From positions 1 through 50,144 of the forward strand of contig JAFUKJ010000082.1 in NCBI GenBank assembly GCA_017467805.1: 50,144 nucleotides of DNA, read 5' to 3'. Shown here one piece after another: positions 47,581 to 50,144 of the stretch (positions are counted from its first letter, which is position 1; every line of letters begins with the position of its first letter). The notes below the pieces were generated by a model. That model did not search any database, was not told where the DNA came from, and saw nothing but the letters and a program-made list of their open reading frames with translations. Position numbers and translations under genes: made by a program. Source of the stretch: Lachnospiraceae bacterium. GTDB lineage: Bacteria; Bacillota; Clostridia; Lachnospirales; Lachnospiraceae.

Positions 47581-48414
47581 ATGCCAAAACCATTGCCAGA
47601 CAATTGCCAATTTTATATAGAAAGGAAGCTTAGAGTCAGTGAATATCAGATGCCTGGATTGGAAGCCGCTACCGACCACTATGAACTAGGATATAGTGTA
47701 TCTGGAGATAGAATCTTTATTACTCCAACTACTACCTATACCTTGCATTCTGGAGAGGTTGGTACAATTCCACCATTTCTATATCACAAGAATGGTCCCG
47801 CCTCTGATGCTCCGTATGACAGATTTCTCATAAAATTTACTCTCGAATTTATAAAACCCTTTACAGACAGATTGGGTAAGCAAGCTTTAGAACAAATCTA
47901 TGCCTATCCCTCGCATAGATTTACGCCGCCTTTGCAGACTAAAATTTTTCATTTGTTTGATGATATGCTACAGGTATATCAATGTGATTCTATATATAGT
48001 GAGTTCCGCCTTCAGTGTATGCTTTTTGAGCTTTTCCTGCTTATACTAGAGGAAAGCCTCCCTCAACGCAATGAAGCTTATCACCCAACCTCACTAACAC
48101 CACCAATTATTGATGCCCTGTATTATATTGAGAATCATTATTCCGAATCGATATCTTTAGATATAGCAGCTCACATTGCAGGCTTTTCCTCAGGACATTT
48201 CTCACGCCTTTTTCAGTCTCAGCTTGGAAAATCCTACTCGGAATATGTAACAAGTGTGCGCCTTAAGCATGTAAAGGAACTCCTGCTTACAACCAATAAG
48301 TCTATCACTGAAATCGCTTTGGATACAGGCTATTCCCATGCCAGTAACCTAACCGAGCAGTTCAAAAAGAAAATCGGCATGACTCCATTGTCATACCGAA
48401 AGGCAAATAAGTAA
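47581..48414 (+). CDS. AraC family transcriptional regulator
   Basis: A 277-residue regulator: an N-terminal cupin-like effector domain (YELGYSVSGDRIFI, TLHSGEVGTIPPFLYHKNG) and two C-terminal HTH motifs from residue ~175 (SISLDIAAHIAGFSSGHFSRLFQSQLG; SITEIALDTGYSHASNLTEQFKKKIGMTPLSYRK). GAGGAC 5 bases before the ATG sets the start. It is divergent from the ABC exporter pair, the likely target. No hairpin terminator is apparent right after the stop, so transcription could run into the palindrome array downstream. Confidence 0.92.
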   Translation: MPKPLPDNCQFYIERKLRVSEYQMPGLEAATDHYELGYSVSGDRIFITPTTTYTLHSGEVGTIPPFLYHKNGPASDAPYDRFLIKFTLEFIKPFTDRLGKQALEQIYAYPSHRFTPPLQTKIFHLFDDMLQVYQCDSIYSEFRLQCMLFELFLLILEESLPQRNEAYHPTSLTPPIIDALYYIENHYSESISLDIAAHIAGFSSGHFSRLFQSQLGKSYSEYVTSVRLKHVKELLLTTNKSITEIALDTGYSHASNLTEQFKKKIGMTPLSYRKANK

Positions 48415-48505
48415 ATACAGCAATTCGGGGTTGCATGGCGGGGTATATCACTACTATTTAGAAAAGGCTTTCTTGTACACCTTTTTATTAAGCACATTTA
48501 CAGTT
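48415..48505. other. Leader of the palindrome array, no gene seen
   Basis: Ninety bases between the araC stop and the first clear palindrome. One weak dyad (GGTATA at 48442 with TACACC ending at 48481, 40 nt across, one mismatch) resembles an array unit in size but is out of the 51-base phase. No convincing promoter, ribosome binding site or terminator is visible. Confidence 0.5.
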
Positions 48506-49127
48506 GTGGCAATAGTAAGCCTTTTTGTTCCTATTGCCACGGTTAGGGTCATAGATGTGGCAATGAGCAGCACTTTTATTACCATTGCCACAGGTAGTAT
48601 CATAGGTGTGGCAATGAGCAAACTTTTTATTACTATTGCCACAATTAGCATCATAGATGTGGCAATGAGCAGACTTTTTATTACCATTGCCACATCAACA
48701 CATTGAACTACTTGAATATTGTTAGATATTGGGCAATAGAAGAAGTTAAGGAGTCCTATTGCCCAAGGTATTCGAGAAACTTGGCATAGAGGAGCATCAG
48801 AAATGTTCAATACCAAGTCAAACGAAAAAAATTGGAAGTTAGTTGATTTGTAATAAGGTTCTTTTCAGCAGTATCTGTATAATTCACTTGGTCTTTTGCT
48901 TGCCAAATGTTTCTCATGACCAAGTTTCTAGGATTCACTTGGTCTTTGACTTGCTAAATGCCTTTCAAGACCAAGTTGGAATAGGAAAATTGGTATTGAG
49001 AAGCATTTGAAGCGTTCTATATCAAATTCAATCTACAAAATGGGCAATAGCAATTAAGAGAATGTTCTTTGCCACATCCACGATACCAACTGTGGCAATA
49101 GGAACAAAAAGAGTGCTCTTTGCCACA
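48506..49127. repeat. Array of about twelve palindromes with 51-base centre-to-centre spacing
   Basis: Non-coding block of imperfect hairpins. Class A (35 nt, GTGGCAAT/ATTGCCAC): 48506-48540, 48557-48591, 48608-48642, 48659-48693. Related TTGGGCAATAG/CTATTGCCCAA: 48729-48766. Class B (36 nt, TTGG-AT/AT-CCAA type): 48781-48816, 48990-49025, and a degenerate one at 48832-48867. Class C (40 nt, ACTTGGTC/GACCAAGT): 48886-48925 and 48937-48976. Inverted class A: about 49041-49075 and 49092-49126. Centres are about 51 bases apart within each run; the runs are broken at 48694-48728 (71 bases) and once by 56 bases. The spacers in the class A block are also similar to each other. Confidence 0.85.
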
Positions 49128-49248
49128 ACAATAGTAAAAGTAATCTACTTCTTCAACCAAATTAAAATATGGCTCAGTACCCATATAGACGACAAATTCT
49201 TTCTTGCGCCGAGGTAACTCGACAAACTCGAATTCATATATATAAAAA
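49128..49248. other. Gap after the palindrome array, no gene seen
   Basis: AT-rich sequence without an open frame of note. One small hairpin ATATGG-CTCAGTAC-CCATAT (around 49168-49187). No promoter could be assigned. Confidence 0.4.
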
Positions 49249-49269
49249 GGGTGTCGCGCTGCGACACCC
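49249..49269 (-). terminator. Intrinsic terminator of the surface protein gene
   Basis: A perfect nine-base-pair hairpin GGGTGTCGC-GCT-GCGACACCC, with TTTTTAT after it on the minus strand and a run of seven T on the + strand. It would also stop any + strand transcript crossing the palindrome array. Confidence 0.9.
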
Positions 49270-49278
49270 CTGATTTTT

Positions 49279-50144
49279 TTAGTTCTCTACCATGATTACA
49301 ACGTCTGTCATTTCGCTTGTAAATAAGCCTACATTACCGATTTCGTTTACTGTCATGGCTGCCTTGAATTCTAACTCTCCTGTTAAGATGTTCTTAGCAT
49401 AGATATATGCTTTCTTGCCTTCGAATTCCTTACCAAGATTTACATGAAGTCCTACTTCCTGTCCTAACTTAGCTGCCTTAGATGGCTTTACATGGAAAGT
49501 ACTAAATCCATCTGCAAATGTATCAATTGTTCTCAACTCTGAAGAAATGTTCATCTCAACATTCGCTGCTGAAAGTGTATTGGCATCAATTGTGAAACCT
49601 ACACCATTTCCTAAGTGTGCCTGAAGAATCATATCCACACCAAAGTACTTACCTAATAACTTGCTTGTTAATGAAGCATTCTTATTAGAAAGAAGTAAAT
49701 CTACGAATGAATATCCTGCCTCTTCAACTGAAGATGCCATAGGAATAATCTCTTCGATAATCTCTACAATCTCAACAACCTTCTGCGGTATCACCGCTGG
49801 TATCACCGCTGGCTTGCTGCTTGAACTTGAAGAACTTGAGCTTGAAGAAGGCTTACTCTCAGGAGTTGTTGACTCCTCTTCCTTTGAAGACTCTTCCTCT
49901 GATGATTCTACATCACTTGATTCCTCTTCTGTTGAAGACTCTACTTCACTTGACTCTTCTTCTGTTGATGACTCTACTTCACTTGATTCCTCTTCTGTTG
50001 AAGACTCTACTTCCGATGATGATTCTTCATCATTTGACTCCTCTTCTGTTGAAGACTCTACTTCGCTTGACTCCTCTTCTGTTGATGACTCTACTTCCGA
50101 TGATGATTCTTCATCATTTGACTCCTCTTCTGTTGAAGGCTCTA
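49279..50144 (-). CDS. Ser/Glu-repeat surface or secreted protein, C-terminal part (5' end outside window)
   Basis: The frame is open from the window edge to a TAA at 49279 (about 288 residues visible). The first ~110 residues are a Ser/Glu/Thr-rich repeat (SSEVESSTEEES-type), then a Ser run, VIPAVIPQKVVEIVEIIEEI and a folded ~150-residue C-terminal domain (GYSFVDLLLSNK, LQAHLGNGVGFTIDANTL, EVGLHVNLGKEFEGKKAYIYAKN, ending TDVVIMVEN). A GTG at 49806 is not the start: the same frame continues without a stop through the repeats. There is no LPxTG motif or membrane anchor at the C-terminus. The repeat resembles stalk or linker regions of cell-surface proteins; the C-terminal domain is not one I recognise. 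Confidence 0.7.
   Translation of the reverse strand, partial: EPSTEEESNDEESSSEVESSTEEESSEVESSTEEESNDEESSSEVESSTEEESSEVESSTEEESSEVESSTEEESSDVESSEEESSKEEESTTPESKPSSSSSSSSSSSKPAVIPAVIPQKVVEIVEIIEEIIPMASSVEEAGYSFVDLLLSNKNASLTSKLLGKYFGVDMILQAHLGNGVGFTIDANTLSAANVEMNISSELRTIDTFADGFSTFHVKPSKAAKLGQEVGLHVNLGKEFEGKKAYIYAKNILTGELEFKAAMTVNEIGNVGLFTSEMTDVVIMVEN
49906..50144 (-). repeat. Coding tandem repeat of 33- and 51-base units
   Basis: The marker CTTCTGTT recurs at 49926, 49959, 49992, 50043, 50076 and 50127, i.e. spacings of 33, 33, 51, 33 and 51 bases, all multiples of three. The 51-base unit is the 33-base unit plus an 18-base Asp/Glu-Ser insert. The array runs off the window edge, so copy number is unknown and may vary between strains. 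Confidence 0.85.

Follow-up and report, generated by a model that had tools for sequence, protein, structure and literature searches.

A palindrome array forms the interior of a compound intergenic element

The window analysed here is a 50,144-nucleotide stretch of DNA from a Lachnospiraceae bacterium. Near its right end, a non-coding compound element of approximately 813 nt (48422-49234) sits between convergent genes, and an array of imperfect palindromes forms its interior. The array had originally been predicted at 48506..49127; the enclosing element extends further. All features of the element lie on the plus strand except its right end. The left end (AATTCGGGGTTG, 48422..48433) is similar to the terminus that starts other elements and is too divergent in this copy to enter the list of AATTCGGGTTTGTCG matches with up to two mismatches. 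It is followed by a probable remnant of the 3' end of a head module, referred to as M (GCATGGCG, 48433..48440, compared by eye), and by a linker (TATCACTACTATTTAGAAAAGG, 48446..48467) common to several classes of tail behind M when 11 loci are stacked by eye. In the sister copy L010, M ends directly ahead of the same linker (by eye).

The tail begins with four GTGGCAAT/ATTGCCAC palindromes of period 51 (48504..48696; centres 48523, 48574, 48625 and 48676), identified by TRF and a shuffle test; three of the four also fit an exact pattern. A TTGGGCAATAG/CTATTGCCCAA palindrome (48729..48766, centre 48747.5, shuffle test), whose arms are identical in L010, and a ACTTGGCATAG.../...AATACCAAGT palindrome (48779..48818, centre 48798.5, p 0.0009) come next, followed by two ACTTGGTC/GACCAAGT palindromes with a period of 51 (48886..48976, centres 48905.5 and 48956.5, shuffle test). 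A weak AATTGGTAT palindrome (48987..49028, centre 49007.5, p 0.005) holds a place like that of the TTGGTAT unit in locus L009 (by eye). The mirrored right block (49043..49127, shuffle test) comprises a weak palindrome, GGCAATAG...CTTTGCC, centred at 49058, and a second, TGTGGCAA...TTGCCACA, centred at 49109. Beyond it lie a decayed copy, recognised by eye, of an end module known from L009, L011 and L012 (49140..49163), and the right end of the element (CGACAAACTCGAATT, 49220..49234, minus strand, one-mismatch match), inverted relative to the left end.

A terminator-like hairpin, present on both strands (49247-49271), separates the element from the convergent gene. A minus-strand open frame at 49279-50142, cut by the end of the window and contig, contains a long Ser/Glu/Asp-rich repeat region and has no Pfam match.

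Most of the predicted palindromes exceed chance

Approximately twelve palindrome centres had been predicted. These were compared with 40 dinucleotide shuffles of 48401-49200, p being expressed, uncorrected, per random centre for the best of five half-base offsets. Nine of the twelve were far above chance (p ≤ 0.001: 48523, 48574, 48625, 48676, 48747.5, 48798.5, 48905.5, 48956.5 and 49109), but two were weak (49007.5, and 49058 with p 0.015) and the centre at 48849.5 was unsupported (p 0.19). The proposed 51-base spacing was confirmed: TRF reports a period of 51 at 48505-48694, and the same spacing is found at 48882-48977 and 49043-49127. Additional palindromic centres fall at linkers (48548.5, 48599.5, 48650.5, 48931, 48982 and 49083.5); several linkers are palindromic too because the arms alternate in orientation. 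The whole array is mirrored, with 48602-48691 and 49043-49132 being 78% complementary over 90 nt.

RNA folding of the array region gave z scores of -13 and -18 on the two strands against 20 shuffles, as any palindrome array must fold far better than shuffles on both strands. A known RNA family was rejected, as no Rfam family matched the window at its gathering score. A repeat protein was also rejected: frames cross the array on both strands, but the periods of other tails are not divisible by three.

Related loci share their ends, and orthologous sites differ

A DNA search of the source genome (G000, 2.99 Mb, 121 contigs) returned 15 array matches on five contigs, giving five loci: the window (C75) and one each on C4 (L009), C111 (L010), C42 and C41. 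One of them is 88% identical over 215 nt. By eye, the sister loci share a class order of end module, GTGG units, a GGGC unit, a TTGGTAT unit and TTGGTC units, complete in L009 and partial in L011 and L012. In the window this order is read from the right end; from the left end it appears mirrored and less complete (by eye). The number of GTGG units differs behind the same flank, with two in L010 and four in the window. A search of 38 other genomes of the genus gave a match to the array in one, G010. The tandem ACTTGGTC pattern was found in three stretches of genome contigs, all from MAG SIG329, in a search from which the near records of the window were possibly excluded. The window array is not a solitary one, since related arrays occur elsewhere.

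With at most two mismatches allowed, G000 contains 29 matches to the terminus AATTCGGGTTTGTCG and G010 contains 37, compared with 4 and 11 for a reversed control. Inverted AATTCGGGTTTGTCG/CGACAAACCCGAATT pairs enclose 299, 585 and 635 nt on contigs C17, C20 and C57 of G000 (L255 1501-1799, L259 1501-2085 and L265 1501-2135); no palindrome array was seen by eye in these three stretches. Terminal inverted repeats, imperfect in the window, several dispersed copies and a lack of coding capacity are traits of a MITE. No target-site duplication was recognised; AATT is present at both ends of the element, and as this is self-complementary, duplication and terminus cannot be separated. We conclude that the palindromes exist and form part of a dispersed non-coding repeat with inverted ends. 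As its sequence changes, the tandem tail of this repeat tends to retain its pairing and spacing.

Two orthologous sites were compared in G010, the closest relative with a match. The araC orthologue there is 84% identical, and the gene on its far side resembles, by eye, the transporter gene next to araC in the window; we take it to be an ABC transporter gene. Directly behind the araC orthologue lies another repeat module that shares the left end (L244 2340-2508, C71), and the stretch ends inside this module. The gene beside L009, presumably korB, has a 99% orthologue in G010, behind which no such element was seen by eye in approximately 900 nt; its right neighbour differs. Neither site in G010 is a clean empty site. 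The gene beside L010, which we assume to be RACo, has no match in G010, so that no orthologue was found there. In L009 (5440-7285, C4 of G000), the array ends near an open frame that may lack its start and that looks, to us, RHS-like.

The head module M resembles Clostridiales-1 RNA

Searches with L012 and L017 identified M as a structured module of approximately 130 nt which begins with GAGCCATGC, ends with GCATGGCG and precedes many tails, with copies in the source genome, in G010 and, once, in G002. Alignment of 17 copies gave 36 consensus pairs, 17 of them with at least one double change, in multi-branched, covarying stems. Of 299 genomes from this family, 128 contain the module according to the covariance model built for M (R1), the source genome among them; 60 neighbourhoods of these matches were retrieved. 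Among the five array loci of that genome, R1 detects M in two (L010 and L012) and does not find it in the window (E ≤ 0.01), L009 and L011. The window copy seems to have lost nearly all of M, apparently keeping its last bases.

M was also compared with Clostridiales-1 RNA (RF01699), a candidate RNA of Clostridiales and the human gut whose description, in the part available, does not mention arrays (PMC2864571). RF01699 matched M at 9 of 14 loci (23.1-32.4 bits) and at 3 of 15 loci (31.3-38.6 bits), and gave nine matches in the source genome at E ≤ 1. The two are alike in that most matches run end to end, at 21-40 bits, and both contain CAUGAG and CGAAUG stretches. They differ in that no M match reaches the gathering score of 48 bits (the best in the source genome has 39.6 bits, and one set gave 0 of 11 loci), and the window holds only the last bases of M. 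Judged by these scores, M is not formally a Clostridiales-1 RNA. The original prediction knew of no named element like the array; none was found for the tail, but the head does resemble RF01699.

Tails of different sequence and period lie behind one head

Besides the GTGGCAAT/TTGG tail (period 51), the source genome contains GGGTATA (52-53), GGTGTAC (61-62), GGTATAC (72) and TACGGAGAA (53, 2.2 copies) tails. In G010 the tails are TTGGTCTC (51), TTGGCAC (51), TTGGTCTTT (52), TGGACC (52-53), CCCGACTAG (53), GGTGTAC (61-62) and ACGGAAAA (63); G124 contains GGGGTAT (72-73) and CCAAAC/GTTTTGG (54) tails, and G207 one 62-nt array. A like linker (TATCACTA.TAT.TAGA) precedes GTGG, GGTGTAC and TGGACC tails at 9 of 11 loci stacked by eye, and is missing from the other two, both GGGTATA tails. 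Tails of different arm sequence therefore sit behind one head and linker. A GGGTATA array pattern gave one match, in G124, among 299 genomes, and its misses say little because it also missed the known GGGTATA arrays of the source genome.

A survey of 94 loci (954,252 bases) yielded 53 repeat rows, of which 31 were judged to be tails; the remainder, with periods between 40 and 90, comprise coding repeats, repeats derived from M and unexplained ones. At consensus level, at most 5 of 60 shuffles were as palindromic for 22 of the 31 tail rows, and nine were not palindromic beyond shuffles: the GGGTATA 52-nt row, three GGTATAC 72-nt rows, the G124 72-nt row, TTGGCAC, one CCCGACTAG row, the G207 array and one of two L009 rows. 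Consensus palindromes are weakest in the 72-nt tails, for which 43, 30, 45 and 22 of 60 shuffles did as well, though arms can be seen in single units of the G124 72-nt tail. Tail periods fall mostly at 51-54, 61-63 and 72-73, values that differ by less than 0.2 from a whole number of turns if one turn takes 10.5 bp. These near-whole-turn periods are suggestive only. Contig starts were also scanned: no new tail was recognised in those of G000 (286,433 bases), and those of G010 (246,328 bases) gave one clear tail (L224 13926-14267, period 52).

Strong arrays lie on the 3' side of M

Strong arrays were defined, with a cut set after the output had been seen, as tandem repeats scoring at least 140 and lying within 600 nt of M. 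In other genera, where loci were fetched by M alone, they were found downstream of M in 7 of 62 cases and upstream in 1 of 62, the single upstream array lying 3' of a second M. In the source genus a strong array followed M in 14 of 25 cases and preceded it in 0 of 30; these loci had been retrieved mostly with queries combining M and a tail, or as contig starts, and several are near-copies. When all repeats scoring above 50 were counted, the genus set gave 16 of 25 downstream against 6 of 30 upstream, and other genera were even, with 18 of 62 on each side; the polarity thus lies in the strong arrays.

For other genera, 62 of 64 model matches were used, two further tandem copies in L167 being left out. 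For the genus set, 31 of 37 were used; those left out were two in L080 (which repeat L012), L076, where M lies at the contig start, L236 and L237, which are cut off, and one 29-bit match in L010. The denominators omit flanks under 200 nt, and the strong tail of L083 is thus uncounted.

Among 29 loci of other genomes inspected by eye, one (L129, from G124, period 72-73) has a palindrome tail right behind M. L138 contains a weakly palindromic 62-nt repeat, L122 is partly masked, and L135 and L137 repeat the 3' part of M itself. Three of the seven downstream arrays in other genera likewise repeat parts of M. In these, the 3' part or nearly all of M is in tandem (L165 7846-8109, period 50; L167 7766-8134, period 124; L198 8064-8309, period 61). 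Such M-derived repeats are a possible origin of the tails.

Arm pairing is kept between classes

According to the original prediction, the second arm of most units changes to match the first. This held between arm classes: in 40 distinct units, 5.97 of 7 outer pairs were Watson-Crick with a unit's own arms and 2.09 with arms swapped between classes, an excess that is partly built in because units were picked by their arms. It was not evident inside the TTGG class (31 units, with 23 distinct ones, three being shifted by one base), where compensatory changes did not clearly exceed those in shuffles. The paired fraction of 0.726, against 0.675, was above 2000 of 2000 shuffles, but the four compensatory pairs (mean 3.1) were reached by 668 of 2000 shuffles and the 11 cells with compensatory change (against 7.7) by 119 of 2000. 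Pairing is kept between arm classes, which is not claimed as proof of selection on pairing.

Wobble pairs were counted on the M-sense strand, which was assigned by analogy for the window units, one window unit being set aside. The 40 distinct units contain 301 Watson-Crick, 16 G-U, 16 A-C and 33 other pairs, some GGGTA units being a base out of register and adding to the 33. Counted as distinct events, there were 15 G-U and 9 A-C; a looser count gave 14 and 17, and the TTGG class in arm orientation gave 18 and 10. The counts show no clear strand bias and, if any, lean towards RNA. GGTGTAC-type arms occur behind M in both orientations, which speaks for DNA. For the array, the DNA level is tentatively favoured over the RNA level.

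Nature of the array

We favour, with a probability of roughly 0.55, the view that the array is the interior of a dispersed, modular, non-coding mosaic element, similar to a MITE or BIME, with an exchangeable palindrome tail. Of the three explanations offered originally, a decayed mobile repeat family fits best, on account of the five loci in the source genome, their shared ends, and the absence or replacement of the element at the two orthologous sites examined. Elements or cassettes would move or recombine between intergenic sites via their ends, and slippage or unequal exchange would add and remove tail units, as the two GTGG units of L010 and the four of the window suggest. Arm pairing would be kept at the DNA level, either by a replicating or binding factor whose target is the palindrome itself, in the form of a DNA hairpin or of a dimer-type site along a single helical face, or by hairpin-templated repair, which can keep arms complementary. 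Against this mosaic reading, most M copies in other genera have no strong tail, and L089 has a tail without M. The search for a mobiliser, which covered PF01797, found none in the source genome, and target-site duplications and clean empty sites were likewise not recognised. M is detected at just two of the five loci of that genome, nine of the 31 tail rows fail the palindrome comparison with shuffles, and the wobble counts by distinct event and in the TTGG class lean towards RNA.

The array could instead belong to a structured non-coding RNA and make up its 3' portion, with tandem hairpins following M in a long RNA that would act as a sponge, scaffold or processing substrate. The covarying helices of M, its resemblance to RF01699 below the cut-off, the position of strong tails 3' of M, the folding scores, and the excess of G-U over A-C in distinct events and in the TTGG class are all consistent with such an RNA. 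It is nevertheless a doubtful explanation: per-unit wobble is equal (16 each) and the looser count is reversed, both strands fold equally well, GGTGTAC-type arms lie either way round relative to M, promoters are not in excess (1 found, 3.6 expected), and the window keeps good palindromes without M. The original version of this idea, a structured RNA from the araC transcript, is unsupported as put forward, as sister copies adjoin other genes. A helically phased array, in which a nucleoid, regulatory or cruciform-binding protein would bind every palindrome from the same side of the DNA, was also among the original proposals. In its favour, the period of 51 recurs and other tails lie near whole turns (4.86-5.14, 5.81-6.0 and 6.86-6.95 turns of 10.5 bp), with palindromes staying at approximately 35-42 nt as the gap grows by about one turn. 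The arms of arrays within one genome are, however, wholly different in sequence, which argues against one sequence-specific protein. The period groups may represent as few as three independent origins, for which a tolerance of 0.2 turn either way gives 0.4 cubed, or approximately 0.06; a period of 51 drifts by 51 degrees per unit, consensus palindromes are poorest in the 72-nt tails, and M-derived repeats have periods of 50, 90 and 124. We regard this explanation as unlikely.

Alternatively, the array may be a neutral by-product with neither function nor mobility, slippage having amplified chance palindromes whose arms are maintained by hairpin-templated repair. The differing unit numbers between copies, the tandem 3' part of M in L165, L198 and L167, and compensatory changes in the TTGG class no more frequent than in shuffles fit this account, yet local slippage alone would not be expected to produce like geometry with unrelated arms, shared linkers and ends, dispersal and 3' polarity, and we consider it quite improbable. 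The mosaic element remains the preferred reading. A more specific and speculative form, which we think unlikely to be correct as a whole, would be a modular Lachnospiraceae element with a Clostridiales-1-like head and a replaceable 3' tail, read or built by a factor that recognises structure, with cassettes swapped at fixed sites via common ends. Pairing, palindrome length and a helically quantised period (approximately 5, 6 or 7 turns) would then be kept and the sequence left free.

Such an element would tie an unexplained family resembling Clostridiales-1 RNA to a class of intergenic DNA elements, and would offer a palindrome mosaic lacking a Y1 transposase in Lachnospiraceae. It would also be an example from nature of pairing and spacing that persist after the sequence has changed, and the recogniser of the palindromes and the growth of tails would become directly testable.

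Comparison with known systems

REP, BIME and REPIN elements are described as palindrome mosaics kept by complementary changes (PMC2817692; PMC3116915, in the parts available). The element described here is likewise intergenic and dispersed, with imperfect palindromes in alternating orientation, regular spacing and mosaic structure. REP sequences have a GT(A/G)G head and a G+C-rich stem with a middle of 2-4 nt (available part of PMC2817692), whereas the array units lack both and have arms of 7-13 nt around a middle of approximately 12-25 nt. Unlike REP and BIME, the element is tied to the structured head M, in a genome without a Y1 transposase: PF01797 has no match in G000 (assembly 95% complete) and is present in 5 of 14 control genomes. 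A REP/RAYT system was rejected on this ground; judged by gene content, the element is not a RAYT-linked REP system. It shares with MITEs, of which Correia and RUP are examples (PMC2817692, available part), its short length, non-coding sequence, inverted ends and dispersed copies, and differs in that no target-site duplication was recognised, no parent transposon was found in a search covering PF01797, and the interior consists of tandem palindromes. The element thus resembles a BIME or a MITE and may work likewise. PARCELs are 25-residue coding palindromic repeats (PMC2996958, available part); the array has similar tandem palindromic units in variable number, but none of the tail periods 52, 53 and 62 can be divided by three, and in the window the array is intergenic. 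A phage origin was rejected: blastn found no match in 50,697 phage records (E 1e-5), the tandem ACTTGGTC pattern is missing from viral contigs, and five viral stretches with the GTGGCAAT palindrome contain it alone, with no array (by eye). No description of these arrays was found among the titles and beginnings of abstracts of openly accessible papers.

Additional palindromic repeats

Other repeats were observed at the loci examined. The contig of the sister copy on C111 of G000 contains a second palindromic repeat, TACGGAGAA/TTCTCCGTA, with a period of 53 and 2.2 copies (L010 7418-7535). In G010, a nine-unit TTGGTCTC array of period 51 on C66 (L089 908-1377) has no M match at E ≤ 0.01, and the contig starts also contain 2.3 copies of a palindromic 51-nt unit (L224 2742-2857) as well as a repeat present twice (L234). 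In G045, a 72-nt repeat (L154 14169-14341), for which 0 of 60 shuffles were as palindromic, lies several kb from the M of that stretch.
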